56,010 nt of DNA from Elusimicrobiota bacterium. GTDB taxonomy: Bacteria; Elusimicrobiota; Elusimicrobia; Elusimicrobiales; UBA9959. This document shows positions 2 to 15,291 of this stretch, piece after piece. Under the pieces are notes generated by a model. It searched no databases. It was not told the DNA's origin and worked only from the letters and a program-made list of their open reading frames with translations. Made by a program: the position numbers and the translations under genes. The stretch covers positions 1 through 56,010 of the forward strand of contig JACRER010000068.1 in the NCBI GenBank assembly GCA_016234365.1, written 5' to 3'. Numbering within the stretch: position 1 is the first letter of the stretch; each line of letters opens with the position of its first letter.

Positions 2-2536
2 ACGGCCACGGGCGTGCTGTACCCGGCCATGAGCGGCGCGGACAACACCAAGGTGGCCAAGGCCGGCGACACCATGACCGGGCAGCTTACGCTGGCGGGC
101 TCCACGCTTACCGTTGCCGGCAACGCCTTCAGCGTGGGCGGGTCCACGCTGGCGGTGGAGGGCGGCAATGTGGGCGTAGGGATAGCCGCCCCGGATACGC
201 GGCTGGAATTGGCCGGCGCCCTGGCCGTAAATTCCGGCGGTGTGAAATATTACCGCTCCCTCGCGCATTACACCGGCGGCGGTACCTTTACCGGAACGCT
301 CAAGATCGCCATGCCGAAATTCTGGTCCGGCACCATGATGCGTATTCGCATAGACGGTTATGACTACGATCCCGCGACTGGCCACTGGGAAGTGCTGGTG
401 TCCGGTTATAACTACGCGCCTTCCGGACCGTGGTACAACTATAGCGCGGAGATACGCGGCAAGGCGCCTTTCAGCCAGGTGCGGCTTGCCAGCGATGGCG
501 CGAAGAACGTGCTGCTGCTTGGGAATCTCTCCACCGACTGGCGTTATCCCAAAGTGGCGGTTTCCGAACTGGTCGCGGGCAACGCCGAGCGCGACGGCTG
601 GGGAAGCGGCTGGGGCATCTCGGTAATTTCTTCCGAGGCCGGCATAGTGGACGTTGTCACGCCTGCGCCGCTATTGCGGACGGTGGGAAGTTTCCTGGTG
701 TCCGGCTCCACCAACGCGGCGCTGTCGGGCACGGTGGACCGCGGCATGGTGGTGACCGCCGGCGGGCGGGTGGGGATAGCGGCCGCCTCCCCGGCGGCGG
801 CGCTGGACGCTGCGGCGGACGGGGCGGCCGTAAGCGACTTCGTCCAGATTTGGCGCAAGTCTGACGGCGTAATAGTGGGTTCCATGAGCGCCACCGGCGT
901 GCTGATGGCGGCGAAATTAATAGGCGACGGCTCGGGCATAACCGGGCTGCCCGGCGGCGACAACCTGGGCAACCACACGGCCACGCAGGCGCTGGGGATG
1001 GCGGGTTTTGCCATATCCGGCGTTTCCACCATCACCATGCAGAACGGCAGCATAGCCATAGTGCAGCCGGGCGGCACGGGGAGCAACAGCCTCTACGGCA
1101 TCTCCATGGGTTATGGCGCCGCCGACAACTACCGTAATGGCATAGGCATAGGGCGGGATGCTAGCAATAATTACAGTACGGGCGTGGGCGTGGGGTACGC
1201 CGCCTACGGCAACCACGATTACGGGGTAGGCATAGGGTATAACGCTCACAATAATTATAACAGCGGCGTCGGCATCGGTTTCAACTCCTCCGATAACTAC
1301 GATTACGGCGTCGGCATTGGCTGGTGGACTTACGTCAATTACAACTACGGTATCGGCGTGGGGTGGGGTGCTGCCAGCAACCTTAACTCCGGAGTGGGGA
1401 TAGGGTACGGCGCCGCCAATAACAACGATTCCGGTGTCGGCATTGGCGCCAATGCTCGCCAGAATCATCATTCCGGCGTCGGCATCGGAGATGGCGCTTA
1501 TCAGAACGACACTTCAGGCGTTGGGGTCGGGAACAATGCCCGCAATAATTATAGTTCAGGCGTCGGCGTGGGCACTGGTGCGAACGGCAACTACAGTTCC
1601 GGTGTCGGAATCGGCTCCGGTGCCGTTGGTAATTCAGGTTATGGGGTGGGGATAGGGGCGAGCGCGCTGAGCAATAGCGCCTACGGCGTGGGAATAGGCG
1701 CTTATGCCCAAAGTAACGACACCTACGGCGTGGGAATAGGCGCCTATTCCCAGAATAATTACGCTTACGGCACCGGCGTGGGGGCGTACACGTCTTCTAA
1801 GTCGTCGTCGGTGGCGCTGGGGTATTACGCCAGGGCCAATAGCGTGGACTCCGTGGCGCTGGGCGCCGGCGCCGCCACCAATGCCCAGCGTTCCGTCTGC
1901 ATAGGCGCCTACTGCGTCAACAACGCCGTGGATACCGCCAAGATACGGGAAGGTTATACGCTCAAGGTGGACTCCATAAGCGTCAGCGCGGCGCTGCCGC
2001 AGCTTACCGTCAGCACCAACGTCTATATTGTGGGCTACTCGTCTGCCGCCAGGTACTACGGCGACGGGTCGGGGCTTACCGGGATAAGCGGGGGGAGCGC
2101 GGGGCCGTCCATAGACGTATCCACCATAAACGCGAGCGCCGCCACGCCCTACGGCGGCGTGAACATAACCACCAACGTCTTTATTACCGGCGGCGCGCGC
2201 CTGGCCCGGGCCGTGGTGCAGGCCGCGGATTCCGGCATTACGCTCACCGCGGCCGACTTCGGCAAGATCATAACCATCAACAGCGCTTCCGCGCAGACGG
2301 TGTCCCTGCCTTCCGTAAGCGCGGCGGACATAGGGGCTACCGTCAGAGTGGTCAAGCTCGGCGCCGGCCAAGTCACCATACAGGCCGCAGCGTCAACCTA
2401 TATAGCCGATTCCACCTCCGGGGGGACCGTATATAACAGCGAGGTAAGCCCGCAATACGGCGCCATTACTTTGTGCCTTGTGACGGCCACGCAATGGATG
2501 ATACTCGGGGGAGACGGCGTATGGACCACTACGTAG
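2..2536 (+). CDS. Repeat-rich fibre/adhesin-like surface protein, 5'-truncated
   Basis: The reading frame is open from base 2, and its first codons (TATGVLYP) continue a motif that is internal in the giant protein at 6004, so the true start lies left of the window. In order it holds: a linker with NTKVAKAGDTMTGQL; a domain at about 240-640 rich in Tyr/Trp; a linker (WRKSDGVIVGSMSATGV) shared almost word for word with the giant protein; 20 repeats of 14 residues; and a C-terminal beta-rich domain ending in WMILGGDGVWTTT. The repeats resemble the YadA-head/Hep-Hag family, which forms trimeric left-handed beta-rolls. No S74 chaperone or membrane anchor is seen at the C-terminus. It is followed 22 bases later by the FGE-fold gene. 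Role (adhesin, appendage or phage-tail-like fibre) is inference; export is likely but the signal peptide is outside the window. Confidence 0.75.
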   Translation, partial: TATGVLYPAMSGADNTKVAKAGDTMTGQLTLAGSTLTVAGNAFSVGGSTLAVEGGNVGVGIAAPDTRLELAGALAVNSGGVKYYRSLAHYTGGGTFTGTLKIAMPKFWSGTMMRIRIDGYDYDPATGHWEVLVSGYNYAPSGPWYNYSAEIRGKAPFSQVRLASDGAKNVLLLGNLSTDWRYPKVAVSELVAGNAERDGWGSGWGISVISSEAGIVDVVTPAPLLRTVGSFLVSGSTNAALSGTVDRGMVVTAGGRVGIAAASPAAALDAAADGAAVSDFVQIWRKSDGVIVGSMSATGVLMAAKLIGDGSGITGLPGGDNLGNHTATQALGMAGFAISGVSTITMQNGSIAIVQPGGTGSNSLYGISMGYGAADNYRNGIGIGRDASNNYSTGVGVGYAAYGNHDYGVGIGYNAHNNYNSGVGIGFNSSDNYDYGVGIGWWTYVNYNYGIGVGWGAASNLNSGVGIGYGAANNNDSGVGIGANARQNHHSGVGIGDGAYQNDTSGVGVGNNARNNYSSGVGVGTGANGNYSSGVGIGSGAVGNSGYGVGIGASALSNSAYGVGIGAYAQSNDTYGVGIGAYSQNNYAYGTGVGAYTSSKSSSVALGYYARANSVDSVALGAGAATNAQRSVCIGAYCVNNAVDTAKIREGYTLKVDSISVSAALPQLTVSTNVYIVGYSSAARYYGDGSGLTGISGGSAGPSIDVSTINASAATPYGGVNITTNVFITGGARLARAVVQAADSGITLTAADFGKIITINSASAQTVSLPSVSAADIGATVRVVKLGAGQVTIQAAASTYIADSTSGGTVYNSEVSPQYGAITLCLVTATQWMILGGDGVWTTT
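1097..1936 (+). repeat. 20 in-frame tandem repeats of 42 bp (14 residues)
   Basis: The 840-bp block divides exactly into 20 units of 42 bp. The consensus is G-V-G-I-G-x-x-A-x-x-N-x-x-S/Y, for example GVGIGYNAHNNYNS and GVGIGFNSSDNYDY. The last units drift to VALGxxA, the classic YadA-head form. Spacing and motif fit a trimeric beta-roll. The repeats are protein-coding and degenerate at the DNA level, so they are not a CRISPR. Confidence 0.85.
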
Positions 2537-2558: not shown

Positions 2559-3569
2559 ATGAGGCCGCCGGGCAGGGTCTTCCTGCTTTCCGCGGTACTG
2601 CTGGCCGCAACCGCCGGGTTTTCCAGCGGGGCGGATGTGACGGCGTATCCGCTGAGCGCGAAAAAGCGGACGCTGGATCCCGGCGCCGATACGGTTGCGG
2701 CCGGCTATTACACGTCTACCACGCTGGCGGTCGTGGACGCGGACCTGGCCGCGGGGAATATCAAGAGCGGGGTGAATATTTTCGGCAAAGTTGGCACGGT
2801 GGAAACCGCCCCGCCCGCGCCTGTTGTAGGCGGTACCTGGCTGCTGGTGCCGGGCGATTCCGTGCTGGGCACCCGGGATTTTTATGTGCAGAAATACGAG
2901 GCCAAGAATGTAAGTTCCGTGCCCACCTCCGAACCTTCCGGCACGCCCTGGGCGTCGGTCACGCAGATAGAGGCGAAAATGCGGTGTGAAGCGCTGGGGC
3001 CGGGCTACCATCTGGTTACAATGAAAGAGGCCCTGACGATATCCCGCAATATCGAGAACAATGCCTGGAACTGGGATGGCGGCAGCGTGGGCAGCGGCGG
3101 CCTGTGGCGGGGCCACTCGGATGGTACGCCGGACAATTCTCTGGCGGCCGACGTAACCGGTGACCCGGACGACGACCCTTACGTGGGAACCGGGAACACA
3201 ACCCCATCCATTGAAAAAAGGGTGCATCAGTTGTCTTCAGGGCAATACCTCTGGGACTGGTCCGGCAATGTCTGGGAGTGGGTGGATATGACCTGCACGG
3301 CGGGGACAGGGGCCGGGTACTGGTACAACGCGGCCTGGATAGAGTGGACCGATGCGAACCTGTCCGATTATGAGAAACCAAGGGCCGGTCCGGCGGGGGC
3401 TTATACAAGCGCCCAGAATGCCGGACGCTATTATGGTTGTACCGCAACCGGAAATGCGGTGTTCCGGGGCGGCAATTGGCTCAACGGTGCGGACGCGGGA
3501 GTATTCGCCTTCGTCGCGGACAAGGCCCCGTCGTACTCGGGCCCGCGCGGGTTCCGCTGCGCCAGGTAA
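2559..3569 (+). CDS. Secreted FGE/sulfatase-modifying-factor-fold (C-type-lectin-like) protein
   Basis: 336 residues. GGGGAGG at 2544-2550 lies 8 bases before the ATG. Residues 1-24 form a signal peptide. Residues 30-85 carry the GYYTSTTLAVVDADL and NIKSGVNIFG motifs common at the N-termini of tail or surface proteins. From about 95 the FGE-sulfatase fold begins (YVQKYEAKN, GNVWEWVDM, FRGGNW, GFRCAR). The two adjacent cysteines that bind copper in true formylglycine-generating enzymes are not found after the RGGNW motif, so enzyme activity is unlikely and a ligand-binding role fits better. The last 35 residues match the layout of variable regions in diversity-generating-retroelement targets. 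It sits directly behind the repeat protein, possibly in one transcript. Fold assignment is confident; function is inferred. Confidence 0.8.
   Translation: MRPPGRVFLLSAVLLAATAGFSSGADVTAYPLSAKKRTLDPGADTVAAGYYTSTTLAVVDADLAAGNIKSGVNIFGKVGTVETAPPAPVVGGTWLLVPGDSVLGTRDFYVQKYEAKNVSSVPTSEPSGTPWASVTQIEAKMRCEALGPGYHLVTMKEALTISRNIENNAWNWDGGSVGSGGLWRGHSDGTPDNSLAADVTGDPDDDPYVGTGNTTPSIEKRVHQLSSGQYLWDWSGNVWEWVDMTCTAGTGAGYWYNAAWIEWTDANLSDYEKPRAGPAGAYTSAQNAGRYYGCTATGNAVFRGGNWLNGADAGVFAFVADKAPSYSGPRGFRCAR
3462..3569 (+). other. Candidate DGR-type variable region
   Basis: The C-terminal segment keeps the fixed residues typical of FGE-fold DGR targets (FRGGNW, NGA-AGVFA, APS, GFRC). The positions that are Asn in many relatives are here Val, Asp, Lys, Tyr, Gly and Arg, encoded by GTC, GAC, AAG, TAC, GGC and CGC. 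Five of those six codons keep C at the third base, as expected if AAC codons in a template were changed at their adenines. No reverse transcriptase, Avd gene or template repeat is visible in the window, so this is a hypothesis from sequence pattern. Confidence 0.35.
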
Positions 3570-3620: not shown

Positions 3621-4748
3621 CTACGCGGCCAGGCCGGCAAGCCAGCGTCCGGCCTGGGCTACAATTGCGCCGCCGGCCCTGCGGTCGTTGCGCAGGTTGT
3701 GCACAAGCTGCACGGCCTGCCTCCCCGGGTGGCGTTCATTGAAGTAGGCCAGATTGCGGCTCAGGGACTCTTCGGAAAGTTTTACCTCTATAAAATGCGT
3801 CAATTCGCCGCCCGCGGCCAGCGCAAAATCCACTTCGCGGCCGTCCTTGGTGCGTATATAGTGCAGCGCCGTGTCCGCGCCGCCTGAGTCCTGCAGGTAT
3901 TGCGCGTGTTTCAGGAGCGATACCGCCACGGTGTTCTCCAGGCGCAGGCCTTCGTCCCCGTCCACGTAGCCGCTGTCGTAAAAATATGCCTTCGGCTCTT
4001 TCAGCAGGGAGCGCGCGATGTTCTTGTGGAACGGGCGCACCAGGAAGATTATGTGCAGGCTTTCGAGGATCTCCACGTACTTGCGTATGGTGTTGGGCGC
4101 GGTTTGCAGATCTCCGGCCAGCGCGGTAAGCGAAAGGGGGGAGCCTACGCGTCTGCGCAGCATTTCAAGCAGCAGGCGTATGGCGCGTATTTCGGTTATG
4201 CGGCTGAAGTCCAGGATGTCTTCCCGCACCAGGTCCGTGTAATACTGGCGCCTCCAGCGCGAGGCTTCCTGGTCGGAGCCGGAAAGGAACGGTTCCGGGA
4301 AGCCGCCCAGGCGGTTAAGGGCCGAGAGGGCCTCGTACGGCGGCAGGGCGCCCGCCAGTTCCTTTACCGAGAGGGGGTTAAGGCGGTGCAGGTGGTAGCG
4401 GCCGGCCAGGGAGTCCCCGGTCTGGCGGAAAGTGTCCAGCCTGGCGCTGCCGGTAACAAGGATGGCCTGCCCATGCGGGCGGGTGTCAAAAGTGCCCTTA
4501 AGGAAAGTTTTCCAACCCCGCATTTTGTGTATTTCATCGAGGATAATAAGGCCGGTGTTGAGCGGCCAGGCGCGGGCGCGGATCACTTCCATGTCGGAGA
4601 CGTCGTCGTTGTTGAGGTAAACAGGGGATTTGAAGGCGGTTTGCAGGCTCTTGGCGAAGTAAGTTTTTCCTACCTGCCGCGGGCCAGTTACAAAGACCAT
4701 TTTTTTCTTCAGGTCTTTAATTGTCTGAGAGTGTATGTAGCGATCCAT
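3621..4748 (-). CDS. AAA-family ATPase with DUF4143
   Basis: 375 residues. Walker A is GPRQVGKTYFAK near residue 20, and the Walker B-like strand is LIILDEIHK near residue 70. The second half is a DUF4143-type wHTH/nuclease-like region ending with a conserved REVDFAL segment (residues about 300-330), typical of this family. These proteins are widespread, often in accessory DNA, and their function is poorly known. The gene converges on the FGE-fold gene and has its own promoter (4753-4782) whose -10 lies 4 bases from the ATG, with no Shine-Dalgarno sequence. Family call is firm; no substrate or partner can be named. Confidence 0.85.
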   Translation of the reverse strand: MDRYIHSQTIKDLKKKMVFVTGPRQVGKTYFAKSLQTAFKSPVYLNNDDVSDMEVIRARAWPLNTGLIILDEIHKMRGWKTFLKGTFDTRPHGQAILVTGSARLDTFRQTGDSLAGRYHLHRLNPLSVKELAGALPPYEALSALNRLGGFPEPFLSGSDQEASRWRRQYYTDLVREDILDFSRITEIRAIRLLLEMLRRRVGSPLSLTALAGDLQTAPNTIRKYVEILESLHIIFLVRPFHKNIARSLLKEPKAYFYDSGYVDGDEGLRLENTVAVSLLKHAQYLQDSGGADTALHYIRTKDGREVDFALAAGGELTHFIEVKLSEESLSRNLAYFNERHPGRQAVQLVHNLRNDRRAGGAIVAQAGRWLAGLAA

Positions 4749-6003: not shown

Positions 6004-9000
6004 TTGCCCGGATCCATGCGGCTTATGAATGACAGGAGAGTTGTCCACACCGCCATTTTTGAGCGGGCCGCCGCCATTGTATTGTTTTTCGCGGCCTTCC
6101 AGGCGCTTCCCGGCCGCCTCTGCGCCCAGACCGAGCTGGGCGCGGCGGACGACCTGACGGTGGTGGGCGCCGATGGAACCCCGTCGGACCCGGACGTGGA
6201 AGTGAGGGGTTTTTCCGTATTCGGCGCCACCCAGGCCGCCTATGCCGGCGCCGCGGCCGGGCCGGGCAATGTGGTGATAAACGGCGTGCTGGCTGTTTCT
6301 TCCGGAGCCTATTTCGTCGGAAATTCCACCTTCACCGGCGCCAACAGAATATTTATAAACGACGGCTCAGCCGGCCAGGTATTGAGTAAAAATTCGGACG
6401 GCGCCCTGCAATGGACCAGCAGCAGCGCCCTGGGCGACAACCTGGGCAGCCATATTGCAACCACCACGCTGAATATGGCGACGTTCAATATCATAAACGT
6501 TTCATCTATTAATTTCCTCGCCAATGTTCTCATGACATCCGCTACAGCGGCTCAGTTGGGCGGGTTCTATGTAAGCAGCAATGTCTATATAGTGGGCGTG
6601 ACGTCGGCCGCCAAATACTACGGCGACGGCTCGGCGCTGACCGGCATCGGTGGGGCTGGGTCCGGCTTCAATGCCGATCTGCTCGATAGTCTCGATTCGC
6701 TGGATTTTGTCAGGAAGACCGGCTCAATTTCAGAGTCGATAACCGGCCCAAAAACTTTTGTGAGCAGCATAACGGTAACTAAGGTCCTTGCCCCCCAGGG
6801 GTTTACCGTTTCTGAGGGCTCTGCCGGGTACGGCATTTATCCTGGGTATGTCAACATACGGGGGGATGGCGCTGCCGGCCTGTATAGCTTTATCGACTTC
6901 GATGGCGTGACCGCCAGAATGTCCGTGAACAACGTCGGCAATGCTGGCGTGCAGATAAAGACCAGTGCCGGGATCGGATTGACCGTCAACTCTTTAGGGA
7001 ATGTTGGTGTCGGGGCAAATAACCCGATGGCCAATCTCCATGTTTCTTCTACCACGGCTTCCGCTACTCAGGACATGGTTAAGGTTACTACGGGGGGTGT
7101 CTCCGCGGATGTGTTTGTTATAAAAGGTAACGGCGATGTCGGCATCGGAACTATGAATCCAAAGGCAAGGTTGCATCTCGTTTCCAATTCCACTGCGGAC
7201 TCCGGAGTCTTTATCGCCAGTCATGCCATAGGCGGTTACGGCCTTTTTGTTTCAACAAACGGCAGCGTCGGCATCGGACTGGAGGCGCCTGGTGAGAGAT
7301 TGGAAGTGGATGGACATGTAAAATTGACCAATGTGAAGGGTAATGCCAGTGCTATTAGCATTCAGCCTGCTTATGATAATGGTTCGTGGCGCTTTGATTC
7401 TGTAGATCGTTCCCTGACGGAAAGTATCGCTGGTGCGCCATTCACAGCAAAGTTCGGCACCAATGAATCTGGTGCGGACCTCGCGTTAGTGACGGGAACG
7501 AAAATTGAAGCAATGCGTATTGGAGCGGCTGGCAACGTCGGGATCTCGTCAACCAGCCCGAGTCAGCGATTAACGGTAAGTGGCGGCCCCAACACTCAAA
7601 TCCTGCTGGATGCCAATGGTACTGGCGGTGGATACCACCTGTGGAGTTTTGGTGTGCCGGTTGGATCTATTAACGCTCCTGTCGGACAATTTAACATCAA
7701 TGTTTTTAACGGTAGAGATTTTACGCTTAATACTGCCGCGGCAGAGCGCTTGCGTATTACAGAGGCGGGTGGTGATGTCGGCATTTCCACAAATGCTCCC
7801 GCGGCTAGGCTTGATGTAAAAGCTGGTGGAACGCTTCCAGATAATATGGCGCAGATCTGGCGCAAGTCGGACGGCGTAATAGTGGGCTCCATGAGCGCCA
7901 CCGGCGTGTTGATGGCCGCGAGATTTGTGGGCGATGGTTCCGGCCTCACCAACCTGGCCGGTGGCGGCGACAATCTTGGCAGCCACGTGGCCACCACCAC
8001 ACTGAATATGGCGACGTTCAACATAATAAACATCGGTTCCATAACCGCCAACGCGGCTATTACCATCTACTCCAGTATGACGGTGGCGGGGAATCTTTCT
8101 GTAAGCACCGTTGCCGCCTCCGGCAATATTACCGCCGCGCGCTACCAGATAAACGGCAGCACGGTGCTGGCGGTATTGCCGGGAACCGGAAGTTTGGGGA
8201 TAGGTATAGATGCCGGGAAGTTGAGTGCCGGGAATTACAACTTTTTTGCGGGACAATACGCCGGCCAGGCCAACGGCGCCGGGTACGACAATTCTTTTCT
8301 GGGCTATCAGGCCGGCAAATCCAATGATACCGGATGGGATAACACCTTTGTGGGCTATCAGGCTGGTTATTCCAATTCTACGGCCAGATATAACACCTTT
8401 GTGGGCGCCTCGGCCGGCTACAACACCGGCACCGGGAGATTCAACTCCTTCTTTGGACAGAGTGCTGGAGGCAGCAACAGTTCAGGAGAAGATAATACCT
8501 TTATGGGCCACTGGGCTGGCCTGTCCAGCACTTCGGGGGGAAATAACACTTTTGTGGGCTCTTATGCGGGCCTCTATGACCAGACCGGTTCGGCTAATGC
8601 GGTACTGGGCTACCAGGCCGGCAATGGCGTATCGGGTAACAGCTACTTTTCCAGCTCAACGCTTATCGGTTATGCGGCGGGCGCCGGGCTGACCACCGGC
8701 AATAATAATATTTTCGTAGGATGGCAGTCCGGGTTAAGTGTTACAAGCGGCGCCGGTAACATCGTCATCGGTTACGCCAAAGACGCCCCGACACCAACCA
8801 GCAATAATTACCTGAATATAGGCGGACTTATTGTCGGGGACATGTCCCTTAGCTCCGTAACGATCGTCGGCAACGCGTTCAGCGTGGGCGGCGCCACCTT
8901 GACGGTGAAGGGCGGGTACGTTGGGATCGGGACCACTACGCCCAATTTCCCGCTGGACATAGCTTCAGTGAGCGCGGCCAACAGGAAGCTGGGCATGGGC

Positions 9001-12000
9001 GGAGTGCAGATGCTTTACTACCCGGACCAAGCCAATTTTCAGGAAACCCTCGTTATCGGCAATGGGGGGGGGAGTTTATCTCACTCCAGCGGTTCACAGG
9101 GTTACTATAACACTTTCGCCGGAATACGCGCCGGGAATTCAAATTCCAGTGGCCAGGGTAATTCTTTCTTCGGTGCCGCTGCCGGGCAGGCGACCAATAC
9201 TGGAGCCTTTAATGCTTTCCTTGGAACGGATGCTGGATACTCCAATATCAGCGGCGGCATGAACACAGCTATCGGAACAGATGCGGGCTTCAATAATCAA
9301 ACGGGGGCACAGAATGTTGTCATTGGGATGGACGCCGGTTTCGGCGTCAGTGGCAACTCGTATTCTAACAATATTTTTATAGGTTTCCAGGCCGCGAACA
9401 GCGTTACGACCGGCGGAAACAATATAGTCATCGGTTACGACCAGGATATCTCGGCGCCTACAGCCGCCAATGAACTCAATATCGGCGGGGTATTGTACGG
9501 GAACCTGTCCGCAAAAACCATCGGCATCTCCACCAATACGCCGCAGGCGGCATTGGACGTTGTTTCCACCGGCACGCTGCTAACCCAGTATGCCCAGATC
9601 TGGCGCGCTTCCAACGGCACTGTCGTAGCCTCCATGACCGCCACCGGCGTGCTGTATCCCGCTGTCCCCGCTACCGATAACACCAAAGTGGCCAAGGCCG
9701 GCGACACCATGACCGGTCAGTTGACGATCAGCGGCTCCTCGCTGACCGTAGGCGGGAATATCTCAGCCAGTACTATAGCCGCCTTCGGCAGTATCACCGC
9801 CGCGCGCTACCAGATAAACGGCAGCACCGTGCTGGCGATATTGGGGGGGATTGAAAGCCTGGGGGTTGGCCCAAACTCCGGGCGGATCAATCAAGGCGAC
9901 TATAATGTTTTCGCAGGGCAGAGCGCGGGGAACTCCAATGTCGGGGGAGGGTACAATTCATTTTTAGGCGCGTATGTTGGCAGCAATGCCAACGCGAGCT
10001 ATAATTCATTTTTCGGCGCTTATGCCGGCTTCTCCGCCACTGGGGGGTATAACACTTTTCTGGGTGCTGATGCGGGCCGCCTCAACACCACGGGGTGGAA
10101 CAACTCCTTTGTAGGTTATGGTGCCGGAAAAAACAACACTACTGGACGGCAGAACTCCTTTCTGGGCTATAATGCGGGGTGGAAGAACAGCACTGGCTGG
10201 AACAATTCTGGCTTCGGGGCGTATTCAACTCTCAACAACCAGGCGGGGTGGGCAAATGCCGTATTCGGCTATGAAGCAGGTTACGGAGTAGACACTTACT
10301 CGTTCTCCAGTTCCACGCTAATGGGCTACCGGGCCGGTTACGGGCTTAGCACCGGTTCGGACAATATCCTGCTCGGCTTTCAGGCCGGTGACGCGCTTAT
10401 CACAGGCGCCAGGAATATTATTATCGGTTACGACCAGGATGCATCTGCCGGAGCAGCTTCGAACGAGTTGAACATCGGCGGCGTGCTTTACGGCGACCTT
10501 TCCGCCAAAACCATCGGCATCAGCACCCGCGCGCCGCAGGCGGCGCTGGATATAGTTTCCACCGGCACTTTGGTAAGCCAATATGCCCAGGTGTGGCGCG
10601 ATTCCACCGGTCTTGTAGTGGCCTCTATGACGGCTAACGGCAAACTGACCACGCTGCAAATCTTGCCCGGAGACAATCTGGGCAACCACACGGCCACGCA
10701 GAACCTGGACATGGCCTCAAAAGGGATCATAGGTATTTCCAGCATCAGCGCAAGCGGCATCTGCGTAAGCAGTTATGGAGTTATACAAACCGCCGGCCCC
10801 GGTCTTAACAATATAACAGGGAACCCCAGAGGCGCCGGGGCGGTGGACCTTCAGACTTACAGGACAGCCGCGACACAAGTGGCTTCCGGGGATTATTCCA
10901 GGATCGTCGGCGGACAGGAGAATACCGCAAGCGGCGCAGGTTCCGCCGTTATCAGCGGGGAAGGAAATGTCGCGGCCGGGTACGGCGCCGTCGCCGGCGG
11001 CATGGGCTACGATTTTGCGGGAGGGGACAATTCGATAGTTCTTGCCGCCTATAGCACCGCAACCGCCTACGGCTCTTTTATCGGCGGCGGGGAAGAACAT
11101 TTTGCGACCGCTGATTATGCGGCGATTATCGGGGGATTTAGGAACAGAGCCAGCAAATACGCTGCGGTGGTTTCCGGAGGCGCAGAGAACATTGCGGATG
11201 GTCTGGAGTCGGGGGTTTTCGGAGGCCGGGAAAATTCCGCTACCGGAGATTATTCTACGGTTCCCGGCGGTTACGGCAATACCGCCGCGGGTCAATATTC
11301 TTTCGCGGCCGGCTATTTTTCCTCCTCTACCGCTAACGGCGCCTTTACCTGGAACGACGGGGACAATCTCGCGGTTAACTCTGCGCTGAACCGTACCTGG
11401 TTTAAAAGCCGCGGCGGGTTCCTTGTAACCGGGTCCACCAATCCGGTAATGACCGGGGCGCTGGACCGCGGAATGCTTGTAACCGGCTCCGGGCTTGTGG
11501 GTATTTCCACAGGTGTCCCATACGCGGCACTTGACGTGGTTTCTACCGGCACCCTGGTGAGCCAGTACGCCCAGGTGTGGCGTGATTCCACCGGCCTTGT
11601 TGTGGCCTCCATGACGGCCAACGGCAAGCTGACCACGCTGCAGACCCTGCCCGGAGACAACCTGGGTAACCACACGGCCACGGAGGTTTTAAAAATGGGC
11701 GCCTATGGCGTAAATACCTCCAGCCATATCACGGCGGCCGCCTACCAGATAAACGGCAGCACAGTGGCGGTGATTTTGCCCGGCTGGGACAGTATTGCTT
11801 ACGGCGTATACGCCGGAACCAGCAATATAACCGGCGGGGATAATAATACTTTCATCGGCAATTATGCGGCGACATCCAATACGACCGGCAATAAGAACAC
11901 GGTGAACGGCGCTTATGCCCTTTATGCCAATACGACCGGAAATCAAAATACCGCGAACGGCGCTTATGCCCTCCGCGGCAACACTACTGGCGGTTATAAT

Positions 12001-15000
12001 ACCGCGAACGGCGCCTATGCCCTCTACAGTAACACTACCGGAGGTGATAACACCGCGGACGGGCAAGCCGCCCTCTACAGCAACACTACCGGCGGTAACA
12101 ATACCGCGAATGGCGAAAGCGCCCTTTACACCAACACGACCGGCAGTAAGAATGTCGCTGTAGGCTACATGGCCCTCCGCTTCAATGTTAGAGGTTCGGC
12201 GAATGCCGTTATGGGTTATCAAGCGGGTCAGGGGCCAAGCTCCAATTCTTTTTCCAGCGCAACACTTATGGGTTACCAGGCAGGATACGGCCTCACCACC
12301 GGCAGCGATAATATTTTCCTGGGTTGGAAGGCTGGCTATAATGTCACCACAGGCACCGGAAATCTCGTTATCGGTTACAACCAGCTCGCGCCTGCGGCCA
12401 ACAGTAATAATTTCCTGAATATCGGCGGCGTGCTGTACGGAGACCTCTCTGCCAAAACCATCGGCATTTCCACCCGCGCGCCGCAGGCGGCTTTGGATAT
12501 AGTGTCCACCGGAACCACCGTCAATGACTACGCGCAGATCTGGCGAAACTCGGCGGGCACGATAGTTTCTTCCATGACGGCCACCGGCGTGCTGTATCCG
12601 CTGAGCAGCGGCGGCGACAACCTGGGCAACCACACGGCCACGGAGGTTTTGAAAATGGGCGCCTATGGCGTAAATACCTCCAGCCATATCACGGCGGCCG
12701 CCTACCAGATAAACGGCAGCACGGTTTTAGCAATACTGCCGGGGACCGGCAGTTTTGGTGTGGGCAGCAACACCGGTATGGTTAGCCTGGGGGATTATAA
12801 TGTTTTTGTGGGCGAGAGCGCTGGAATGGCAAACATCTGGGGGGAGCAGAACACCTATGTGGGTTCCTATGCGGGCTATGCAAGCGAGGACGGGTACGAA
12901 AACACTTTTATAGGCACTTTTGCCGGTACTGACAATACTACCGGCGGCGAAAATGCTTTTGTCGGAGGACGTGCAGGACTTCGCAATACAACCGGCTGGG
13001 ATAACTCTTTTCTGGGCGCCGAAGCCGGCAGTTTCAATACTACAGGGGGGGCGAATTCATTTTTTGGGGCCTACGCCGGGCAGAAGAACACGACCGGGCA
13101 TAAAAACTCTATAGTGGGGCTTTCAGCCGGTAACTTCAATCAAACCGGCTCCGCTAATGCGATATTCGGAGCCCAAGCCGGTTATGGAGTTTTAGAAAAC
13201 TCCTTCTCCAGCTCAACTATTATGGGTTACCAGGCGGGTTACGGCCTGACCACCGGCAGCGAGAATGTATTCGTCGGATTTCAGTCCGGCTTTTCCAACA
13301 CCACCGGCAACCAGAACTTGTTTTTGGGTAATTCCGCCGGTTATTCCAACACCACAGGGACGGATAACTCATTTGAGGGGTACAATGCCGGCTACGCTAA
13401 CACCACAGGGTATCGGAACTCCTTTATAGGATCTTATGCGGGCCACGACAACACCACGGGGGCTAGTAATGTGTTCGTGGGTTACGAGGCGGGCTACTCC
13501 AACACTGATGGGTCTGATAACTCCTTTTTCGGTCTTGACGCCGGCGTCTCCAATACCACGGGGTATGACAACACCTTTTTGGGATATTATGCCGGCGTTT
13601 CCAACGACACCGGTATAAATAACACCTTTGTAGGCGCTACTGCGGGCGGCTCCAACATCACAGGGCACGAAAATTCTTTTTTGGGGGCATATGCAGGCAA
13701 CGAAACCACCACAGGATCCAATAATTCATTTCTGGGATATCAAGCGGGCTACTACAACACTACTGGCAACAGCAACTCGATATTTGGCTATACCGCGTCG
13801 TATAGCAACAACAAAACAGGTTCGGCTAATGCCATATTCGGCAGCGAGGCCGGTTATGGCGTCTGGCCCAACGCATACTCAAGTTCAACACTTATGGGCT
13901 ATCGCGCCGGGTACGGCCTGACCACCGGCAGCGACAATATTTTCCTTGGTTTCAAGGCCGGCTACAGCGTAACCACCGGCACGGGCAATATAATAATCGG
14001 CTACAACAAGACCGCCCCGGCGGCCGGCACAAACAACTATCTCAATATCGGCGGCCTCGTAGTCGGAGATCTGGGCCAGAGTTCAGTAACTATAAACGGA
14101 AATCTGTCCGCCGCGCGCTACCAGATCAACGGCAGCACCGTGCTGGCGGTGCTGCCGGGAAGCGGGAGTTTGGGGATAGGCGTTGGCGCGGGCATTGTGA
14201 ATAGCGCCGGATACAATATCTTTGTAGGGCTTAATGCGGGCCGCGACAACAGCACGGGGGCGTCAAACGCCTTTGTGGGCTCTTCTGCTGGCAAATTTAA
14301 CACCACTGGGGGCAGTAATTCCTTTTTTGGCGAGTCTGCTGGTCTCTCCAACACCACAGGGAATAACAACACATTTTTAGGCTATGCTGCTGGTTCCAGT
14401 AATGTAACAGGGATAAATAACTCATTTGTGGGTACCTCCGCGGGCTTAGGCACCACTGGGAGTAATAACTCATTCATGGGCTATCATGCGGGTTATGACA
14501 ACATTACGGGGAGCAACAACTCCATTTTCGGTTCATATGCGTTAGGGGACGGTAATAAAACAGGCTCAGCTAATGCCATCTTCGGCAATGAAGCTGGTTA
14601 TGGCGTATGGCCCAATTCTTTCTCCAGTTCAACGCTGATGGGCTACCAGGCCGGTTACGGCCTTACCACCGGCAGCGACAATATTTTCCTGGGTTTTAAG
14701 GCTGGCTACAATGTCACCAGCGGCACGGGGAACATTATTATAGGGTACAACCAGAATCCGCCCGCGGCTGCAACCAGTAATTTCCTGAACATCGGTAATA
14801 TTATTCACGGGGCGCTTAACGCCTCCTCCGTTACTATAAACGGGACCTTCTTCGTGCCGAAGGCCGGCACCACCGCCAGCGCGGCTAATGCCTACATAGA
14901 CGCCGCTACCGGGCAGCTTATGCGCTCCACGTCCTCGCGCAGGTATAAGAAGGATATCTTGGGCCTGGACGATGACTTTTTTAAGATACTCAAGGTGCGG

Positions 15001-15291
15001 GCGAAGTCGTTCAACGAAATAAATACCGGCAGGCATGAAGTCGGTTTTATAGCCGAAGAATTCGATGCGGCCGGGCTGAAGGACCTTGTGGTCTACGACG
15101 CGGCCGGCCGGCCGGACGCTATAAAGTACGACAGGGTTCCGCTTTATCTGCTGGAAGTTATAAAAGCCCAGCAGGCGCGGATAGAGGCCGAGCGCGCTAA
15201 AAGCGCCGAACTGGCGGCGCGGGTGGATCGGTTGGAACGCAAAATCGGCCTTATCATCTGGGATAAACCTGGGGCCGGCAAAAAGAAATAG
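6004..15291 (+). CDS. Giant modular repeat protein with C-terminal S74 intramolecular chaperone
   Basis: 3,095 residues. A TTG at 6004 with GGGGAG 10 bases upstream is the favoured start; an ATG at 6016 is the alternative. A hydrophobic signal segment (AAAIVLFFAAFQAL) precedes a mature region starting near CAQTELGA. The body alternates four elements: 17-residue repeat arrays (NTFVGYQAGYSNSTG type), a cap cassette (GYGLTTGSDNIFLGFKAG ... LNIGG), an ALDVVSTGT-YAQ-WR-ASMTA linker, and a YQINGSTVLA-LPG lead-in. Residues about 2975-3055 are a Peptidase_S74/endosialidase-chaperone domain starting SSRRYKKDI (S2977), with a trimerising helix after it. In that family the chaperone folds the trimer and then cleaves itself off before the serine. 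A long trimeric fibre on the cell surface is inferred; a phage-tail origin is possible, but no other phage genes are near. Confidence 0.88.
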   Translation: MPGSMRLMNDRRVVHTAIFERAAAIVLFFAAFQALPGRLCAQTELGAADDLTVVGADGTPSDPDVEVRGFSVFGATQAAYAGAAAGPGNVVINGVLAVSSGAYFVGNSTFTGANRIFINDGSAGQVLSKNSDGALQWTSSSALGDNLGSHIATTTLNMATFNIINVSSINFLANVLMTSATAAQLGGFYVSSNVYIVGVTSAAKYYGDGSALTGIGGAGSGFNADLLDSLDSLDFVRKTGSISESITGPKTFVSSITVTKVLAPQGFTVSEGSAGYGIYPGYVNIRGDGAAGLYSFIDFDGVTARMSVNNVGNAGVQIKTSAGIGLTVNSLGNVGVGANNPMANLHVSSTTASATQDMVKVTTGGVSADVFVIKGNGDVGIGTMNPKARLHLVSNSTADSGVFIASHAIGGYGLFVSTNGSVGIGLEAPGERLEVDGHVKLTNVKGNASAISIQPAYDNGSWRFDSVDRSLTESIAGAPFTAKFGTNESGADLALVTGTKIEAMRIGAAGNVGISSTSPSQRLTVSGGPNTQILLDANGTGGGYHLWSFGVPVGSINAPVGQFNINVFNGRDFTLNTAAAERLRITEAGGDVGISTNAPAARLDVKAGGTLPDNMAQIWRKSDGVIVGSMSATGVLMAARFVGDGSGLTNLAGGGDNLGSHVATTTLNMATFNIINIGSITANAAITIYSSMTVAGNLSVSTVAASGNITAARYQINGSTVLAVLPGTGSLGIGIDAGKLSAGNYNFFAGQYAGQANGAGYDNSFLGYQAGKSNDTGWDNTFVGYQAGYSNSTARYNTFVGASAGYNTGTGRFNSFFGQSAGGSNSSGEDNTFMGHWAGLSSTSGGNNTFVGSYAGLYDQTGSANAVLGYQAGNGVSGNSYFSSSTLIGYAAGAGLTTGNNNIFVGWQSGLSVTSGAGNIVIGYAKDAPTPTSNNYLNIGGLIVGDMSLSSVTIVGNAFSVGGATLTVKGGYVGIGTTTPNFPLDIASVSAANRKLGMGGVQMLYYPDQANFQETLVIGNGGGSLSHSSGSQGYYNTFAGIRAGNSNSSGQGNSFFGAAAGQATNTGAFNAFLGTDAGYSNISGGMNTAIGTDAGFNNQTGAQNVVIGMDAGFGVSGNSYSNNIFIGFQAANSVTTGGNNIVIGYDQDISAPTAANELNIGGVLYGNLSAKTIGISTNTPQAALDVVSTGTLLTQYAQIWRASNGTVVASMTATGVLYPAVPATDNTKVAKAGDTMTGQLTISGSSLTVGGNISASTIAAFGSITAARYQINGSTVLAILGGIESLGVGPNSGRINQGDYNVFAGQSAGNSNVGGGYNSFLGAYVGSNANASYNSFFGAYAGFSATGGYNTFLGADAGRLNTTGWNNSFVGYGAGKNNTTGRQNSFLGYNAGWKNSTGWNNSGFGAYSTLNNQAGWANAVFGYEAGYGVDTYSFSSSTLMGYRAGYGLSTGSDNILLGFQAGDALITGARNIIIGYDQDASAGAASNELNIGGVLYGDLSAKTIGISTRAPQAALDIVSTGTLVSQYAQVWRDSTGLVVASMTANGKLTTLQILPGDNLGNHTATQNLDMASKGIIGISSISASGICVSSYGVIQTAGPGLNNITGNPRGAGAVDLQTYRTAATQVASGDYSRIVGGQENTASGAGSAVISGEGNVAAGYGAVAGGMGYDFAGGDNSIVLAAYSTATAYGSFIGGGEEHFATADYAAIIGGFRNRASKYAAVVSGGAENIADGLESGVFGGRENSATGDYSTVPGGYGNTAAGQYSFAAGYFSSSTANGAFTWNDGDNLAVNSALNRTWFKSRGGFLVTGSTNPVMTGALDRGMLVTGSGLVGISTGVPYAALDVVSTGTLVSQYAQVWRDSTGLVVASMTANGKLTTLQTLPGDNLGNHTATEVLKMGAYGVNTSSHITAAAYQINGSTVAVILPGWDSIAYGVYAGTSNITGGDNNTFIGNYAATSNTTGNKNTVNGAYALYANTTGNQNTANGAYALRGNTTGGYNTANGAYALYSNTTGGDNTADGQAALYSNTTGGNNTANGESALYTNTTGSKNVAVGYMALRFNVRGSANAVMGYQAGQGPSSNSFSSATLMGYQAGYGLTTGSDNIFLGWKAGYNVTTGTGNLVIGYNQLAPAANSNNFLNIGGVLYGDLSAKTIGISTRAPQAALDIVSTGTTVNDYAQIWRNSAGTIVSSMTATGVLYPLSSGGDNLGNHTATEVLKMGAYGVNTSSHITAAAYQINGSTVLAILPGTGSFGVGSNTGMVSLGDYNVFVGESAGMANIWGEQNTYVGSYAGYASEDGYENTFIGTFAGTDNTTGGENAFVGGRAGLRNTTGWDNSFLGAEAGSFNTTGGANSFFGAYAGQKNTTGHKNSIVGLSAGNFNQTGSANAIFGAQAGYGVLENSFSSSTIMGYQAGYGLTTGSENVFVGFQSGFSNTTGNQNLFLGNSAGYSNTTGTDNSFEGYNAGYANTTGYRNSFIGSYAGHDNTTGASNVFVGYEAGYSNTDGSDNSFFGLDAGVSNTTGYDNTFLGYYAGVSNDTGINNTFVGATAGGSNITGHENSFLGAYAGNETTTGSNNSFLGYQAGYYNTTGNSNSIFGYTASYSNNKTGSANAIFGSEAGYGVWPNAYSSSTLMGYRAGYGLTTGSDNIFLGFKAGYSVTTGTGNIIIGYNKTAPAAGTNNYLNIGGLVVGDLGQSSVTINGNLSAARYQINGSTVLAVLPGSGSLGIGVGAGIVNSAGYNIFVGLNAGRDNSTGASNAFVGSSAGKFNTTGGSNSFFGESAGLSNTTGNNNTFLGYAAGSSNVTGINNSFVGTSAGLGTTGSNNSFMGYHAGYDNITGSNNSIFGSYALGDGNKTGSANAIFGNEAGYGVWPNSFSSSTLMGYQAGYGLTTGSDNIFLGFKAGYNVTSGTGNIIIGYNQNPPAAATSNFLNIGNIIHGALNASSVTINGTFFVPKAGTTASAANAYIDAATGQLMRSTSSRRYKKDILGLDDDFFKILKVRAKSFNEINTGRHEVGFIAEEFDAAGLKDLVVYDAAGRPDAIKYDRVPLYLLEVIKAQQARIEAERAKSAELAARVDRLERKIGLIIWDKPGAGKKK
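10864..11340 (+). repeat. Divergent repeat array of GG-N-A-G-YS type inside the giant gene
   Basis: This stretch uses another repeat: IVGGQENTASGAGSAVISG, VVSGGAENIADG, FGGRENSATGDYSTVPGG and similar, ending in FTWNDGD. It resembles Hep/Hag-like beta-roll repeats rather than the 17-residue N-x-F-x-G units around it. Confidence 0.7.
11656..12722 (+). repeat. Near-identical 107-bp segments 960 bp apart in the giant gene
   Basis: Bases 11656-11762 and 12616-12722 differ at only two positions (offsets 12 and 36), although the flanking DNA has drifted. The segment encodes DNLGNHTATEVLKMGAYG and the lead-in to the next array. This points to recent duplication or gene conversion. Confidence 0.85.

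Follow-up and report, generated by a model that had tools for sequence, protein, structure and literature searches.

Targets of diversity-generating retroelements (DGRs) that have outlived the system which diversified them are known from T. denticola. Isolates of this species that lack both the reverse transcriptase (RT) and the template repeat (TR) retain target genes whose variable regions (VRs) differ from the templates of relatives mostly at adenines, and these orphan targets were read as leftovers of lost DGRs (PMC4891356). The best-matching structural precedent for the protein described here is TaqVP, the variable protein of a Thermus aquaticus DGR, in which the VR lies at the extreme C-terminus of an FGE-subtype C-type-lectin fold and the variable residues are solvent-exposed (PMC6328139). 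The 2021 global DGR survey leaves, by its own statement, VRs away from an RT undetected, so that orphans like the present one are missed; Elusimicrobia are unmentioned in its main text (PMC8144416). In our literature search, outside of which most subscription papers lie, no dedicated report on DGRs in Elusimicrobia was found.

The stretch of DNA analysed here (56,010 nucleotides, in the following "the window") comprises bases 1-56010 of contig C50 and starts at the first base of that contig. Its source genome G000 is a MAG of 2.72 Mb in 100 contigs, which is 96.5% complete and 0.46% contaminated. The gene under study, hereafter the target gene, encodes a protein of 336 amino acids according to the window ORF and its translation, and its named relatives are Elusimicrobia MAGs. 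The original prediction of a secreted protein next to a fibre gene is borne out by the signal peptide, recognised by inspection, and by the adjacent fibre-like gene (see the table). The stalk-like repeat is present as a single copy, while several copies occur in the relatives from G011, G016 and G035. The same fibre-target order is found in G013 (L092), there with two tandem target copies, and the ORFs flanking the target are about 91% identical between the window and G013, so that the target gene is old at its locus. Directly downstream of the target lies an ATPase-like gene (3621-4748, minus strand), a 47% identical relative of which is located downstream of the tandem targets of G013. Further along, positions 6004-15291 encode a fibre protein of 3095 residues that is rich in NTxxG-type repeats and has, by inspection, an apparently intramolecular-chaperone-like C-terminus.

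Coordinates of the features discussed; positions are those of the window unless another locus or contig is named.
Feature	Position	Strand	Basis or remark
Target gene, secreted protein	2559..3569	+	N-terminal signal peptide by inspection
Stalk-like repeat unit, aa 33-105	2655..2873	+	N-terminal repeat matches in relatives
FGE-subtype C-type-lectin domain outside VR, aa 86-299	2814..3455	+	Model and Pfam match of ortholog
Variable region (VR), 37 codons	3456..3566	+	Matches TRs of L042, L083, L084 and L086
Thirteen adenine-derived codons	3462..3548	+	0-15% amino acid identity to closest orthologs
Adenine-derived codons by first base	3462 TTC, 3474 AAT, 3480 CTC, 3483 AAC, 3486 GGT, 3492 GAC, 3513 GTC, 3519 GAC, 3522 AAG, 3534 TAC, 3540 GGC, 3543 CCG, 3546 CGC	+	
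VR 3' end, IMH position, GGGTTCCGCTGCGCCAGG	3549..3566	+	Ends of VRs and TRs aligned; IMH role by analogy with known DGRs
Fibre-like gene	2..2536	+	Ends 22 bp upstream of target gene
Antisense coiled-coil ORF	L042 1821-2195	-	
Antisense coiled-coil ORF	L144 2231-2587		
Antisense coiled-coil ORF	G016 C31:126937-127287		
FGE-VR/fibre fusions	L145 3869-7999; L144 2827-5865; L084 5332-7944		
Collapsed DGR of congener G023	L144 2035-2946		

The translation ends in the frame AVxRGGxW..xAxAGVFAFxAxxAPSxSxxxGFRC, as had been recognised for FGE-fold DGR targets from the sequence. At sites that are Asn in homologous templates the window protein carries L, N, D, V, D, K, Y, G and R. The six codons originally singled out (GTC, GAC, AAG, TAC, GGC and CGC, five of them NNC) were read correctly, and among the codons aligned with a template AAC, 8 of 10 end in C compared to 99 of 299 in the remainder of the gene (binomial p=0.003). 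The region itself was located correctly as well, whereas its proposed limits, 3462-3569, have to be shifted, since template homology runs from the GCGGTG at 3456 to about 3566. Hereby, the VR comprises 37 codons compared to 38 in the template repeats of related DGRs, one codon (ATC or GTC before GGGTTC) being absent in the window. The 3' end of the window VR reads GCCAGG, which is common to G013b, G016a and G022 and does not occur in VRs beside working RTs; the latter end in GGTAGG or GGTAGA and the templates in GGCAGA or GGTAGT. To judge from these ends, GCCAGG may point to a template lineage of its own or to the loss of the homing signal.

The copper-binding cysteine pair of FGE, which lies upstream of the terminal GFRC, is missing as predicted, with no Cys between G305 and C334. 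With 9 bits the protein also stays below the gathering score of Pfam FGE-sulfatase (23.3), whereas its L042 ortholog exceeds the cut-off with 27.1 bits; the window protein thus shows neither of the two hallmarks of a formylglycine-generating enzyme. A profile search of PDB sequences with the target yielded chance matches only. We therefore rely on an AlphaFold2 model of the domain alone (aa 86-336, 24 alignment rows; pTM 0.68, mean pLDDT 60, residues 84-145 of the model being unreliable), as the full protein with 15 rows reached a pLDDT of only 34. Its best PDB match is TaqVP (5vf4; Foldseek 4e-5; VIA Z 13.9 over 201 residues with an rmsd of 3.3), followed by FGE (VIA Z 10.5), TvpA (2y3c, 10.4) and Mtd (1yu3, 9.8). 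The domain is accordingly modelled as the FGE-subtype C-type-lectin scaffold of DGR variable proteins.

Complete DGRs occur in related genera. The most informative one, L042, lies on a 4.7 kb contig of G035, a member of a sister genus in the same family, and consists of target, Avd, TR and RT. Its target is the ortholog of the window gene (69% identical over the C-terminal 295 residues), its Avd matches NF033474 with 102.6 bits (cut-off 80) as well as Pfam bAvd, and its RT carries the IPIGNLTSQ and YMDD motifs. The L042 TR is a non-coding copy of the VR, from which the VR differs at 18 of 27 template adenines and at 4 of 87 other bases. The corresponding pairs of L084 (15/23 adenines, 2/91 other bases) and L086 (16/24 and 2/90) show the same pattern, and all three cassettes are textbook DGRs. 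Complete and broken loci of this family alike contain, shortly after the VR gene, an antisense coiled-coil ORF about 120 amino acids long; it has no family match above cut-off and is possibly an unrecognised accessory gene. One copy of the target family in G050 is a pseudogene with frameshift and stop (L085 3180-3331), and an intact DGR resides elsewhere in this genome.

The window VR was compared with these foreign templates in an alignment that is ungapped save for the one missing codon, whose gap was placed by hand. From the closest one, the TR of L083, it differs at 15 of 25 adenines and 11 of 86 other bases (p=5.7e-6), 9 of the 11 non-adenine differences falling on third positions; non-synonymous changes affect 11 of 14 adenine codons and 1 of 23 others (p=4.6e-6). 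The Fisher tests take sites as independent and the templates stem from other genera, so that these p-values measure a pattern and are not exact probabilities. The adenine bias has the same direction with all four templates compared (L042, L083, L084, L086). Outside the VR, a comparison with G013 reveals no adenine excess (23/134 adenines, 91/508 others), while a small one is seen with G035 (51/150 and 123/477) and likewise with G016.

The same partition appears among orthologs. Over aa 86-299 the domain is 76-86% identical to its closest full-length orthologs (G013, G016, G035), whereas the thirteen adenine codons reach the very low identities given in the table and the 24 scaffold codons 71-92%, with 46% in the decayed G013a copy. 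Where scaffold residues agree, their third bases match in 141 of 195 cases, whereas the same residues outside the VR would predict 99. Judged by these counts, copying from a template explains the coexistence of extreme variation with extreme synonymous conservation, and selection on loops does not. The region 3456-3566 was thus very probably made by a DGR.

The original prediction had placed RT, Avd and template outside the window; they are indeed absent from it, and this absence extends to the assembled genome. The search for an RT gene and a VR-like copy by which that prediction was to be checked returned neither a DGR-type RT nor a template in G000. In the profile search, the only RT of G000 turned out to be a group II intron RT/maturase on contig C57, which was rejected as a DGR RT because of its GIIM domain and its TIGR04416 score of 392 bits. 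NF033474 had no match in G000, and no template was detected in this genome, either by blastn or with a same-or-A pattern (75 bases, at most 3 mismatches). Beside the window gene no remnant of RT or Avd is found. As the RT profile search was sensitive enough to detect a stump of 35 residues in the congener G023, larger RT remnants in G000 would be visible. Across 32 genus genomes, 17 of which contain VR-like ends, no N-rich cognate template was found; high-scoring DGR-type RTs are restricted to G028, G003 and G020, and the templates adjacent to the RTs of G028 and G003 belong to a different type. A possible remote target in G041 (L141), considered as an example of action in trans, was dismissed for its poor match to the G041 TR.

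Within the genus, decay can be followed in steps. In the collapsed cassette of G023 the antisense coiled-coil ORF comes after the VR gene, and behind it stands a 35-residue RT stump (residues 193-227) that is apparently fused to the RT C-terminus; no Avd, no template and no other part of the RT is left. An orphan VR gene of G016 has this coiled-coil ORF downstream as well, at a distance of about 200 bp. The VR scaffold itself decays gradually, non-adenine differences rising from 5/87 in G012 (against the L042 TR) over 11-12/86 in the window to 36/87 in G013a. The window gene has homologs in complete DGRs, an A-biased VR and neither RT nor TR in its genome, which are the marks of an orphan or remnant DGR target. 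Given the absence from G000 and the state of the relatives, the machinery has probably been lost from this genome.

The main uncertainty concerns the age of the VR. The TRs of different genera differ from each other at 7-16 of about 86 bases, a distance similar to that between the window VR and the TRs, so that the VR may be frozen or may have been templated recently. RT and TR may have escaped assembly, since G000 is a MAG in 100 contigs and DGR loci are often found on tiny contigs in relatives (G035 C221, 4.7 kb; C23, 4.9 kb); the scaffold is still quite fresh, as would also be expected after recent templating by an unseen TR. In that case an RT, Avd and TR located on a contig, plasmid or prophage that was not assembled or binned would still rewrite the VR in trans. 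DGR-type RTs with about 40% identity to those of such cassettes are indeed common on viral contigs and in phages, and only a single non-adenine codon of the VR scaffold is changed. However, the genus genomes lack a cognate TR although many have this VR type, and none of the best 80 viral loci holds a matching template (top 75/93, compared to 83/93 for L083), stalk-repeat relatives being all that viral contigs contain of the target protein. Moreover, the cassette of G023 has really collapsed, and the three VRs of G016 differ from one another at synonymous scaffold sites, which argues against recent copying from one template. Taken together, ongoing rewriting in trans is unlikely, and improbable is its extension to the whole genus, in which unbinned plasmid or phage DGRs would act as itinerant mutators of the resident chromosomal VRs on the secreted and fibre-borne lectin tips of many hosts.

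It is also unlikely that the target gene, or only its VR, was acquired ready-diversified by horizontal transfer into a lineage that never had a DGR. The closeness of VR scaffolds does depart from that of the domains, as G012 with its near match to the L042 TR illustrates, and the T. denticola orphan targets are open to the same reading (PMC4891356). Against this stand the locus context common with G013, by which the gene is old at its place, and the collapsed cassette of G023, which shows that DGRs were once resident in the genus. Finally, an ordinary FGE/C-type-lectin-fold protein whose exposed loops vary under selection might resemble a VR through its shared fold: natural variation occurs at exposed sites of this fold, the Pfam score of the window protein is low and G000 is without a DGR RT. 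However, the scaffold matches a template at the nucleotide level, with an excess of third-base conservation, and the changes sit on template adenines of the TR of the direct ortholog. The nucleotide-level match rejects plain loop variation, the L042 cassette largely refutes it, and an origin without any DGR is thus very improbable.

In conclusion, the best explanation overall, and in our view a fairly likely one, is that of an orphan VR which was left behind after DGR loss and now forms a fixed binding tip. Of the DGR originally proposed, the origin of the VR stands, supported by the L042 cassette, the adenine bias, the variability among orthologs and the TaqVP fold, whereas an active DGR in this genome is not supported. 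In the ancestor, an Avd/RT complex would have reverse-transcribed a template RNA with misincorporation at adenines, and the mutated cDNA would have replaced the end of the target gene, thereby randomising about 13 surface residues of the FGE-subtype C-type-lectin domain. RT, Avd and template would later have been lost from the lineage, with the fixed tip remaining.

As to function, the FGE-VR domain occurs in relatives as part of large fibre proteins, internally in G027 and C-terminally in G023 and G050, and these proteins belong to the repeat family of the window fibres. By analogy with these fusions the target protein probably serves as a binding tip and works together with the fibre encoded directly upstream; that it binds a ligand at the fibre tip has, on the same analogy, about even chances. 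Uncultured Elusimicrobiota thus seem to carry diversified lectin tips on their surface fibres. The scar of hypermutation is recognisable here from one sequence although the mutator is gone. As the clade offers complete (L042, L083, L084, L086), collapsed (G023) and orphan states (window, G012, G013, G016) for comparison, the fate of diversified proteins after DGR loss becomes directly testable.

Orphan DGR targets are already known from T. denticola, and the window is a further case. In both, the VR is adenine-biased relative to the TR of relatives and the genome is without RT and TR (PMC4891356); the window, however, belongs to another phylum, its template comparison crosses genera instead of strains, and orphan VRs are spread over its genus, one congener having kept an RT stump. 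With TaqVP (PDB 5vf4, PMC6328139) the window protein has in common the fold subtype and the C-terminal VR (40 amino acids in TaqVP, 37 in the window), but TaqVP is part of a complete DGR, whereas the window protein combines a signal peptide with a stalk repeat and is without a cassette. TvpA of T. denticola and Mtd of the Bordetella phage BPP-1 are alike in fold subtype, display on a surface or fibre tip and C-terminal VR, while the window differs by having no resident RT, Avd or TR. The closest counterpart is the DGR of Elusimicrobia bin N2.88 (L042, JAKLQJ010000265.1), with a direct ortholog of the target (about 70% identity) and the same VR scaffold; there, in contrast to the window, Avd, TR, RT and several stalk repeats are present, and the VR ends in GGTAGG instead of GCCAGG.
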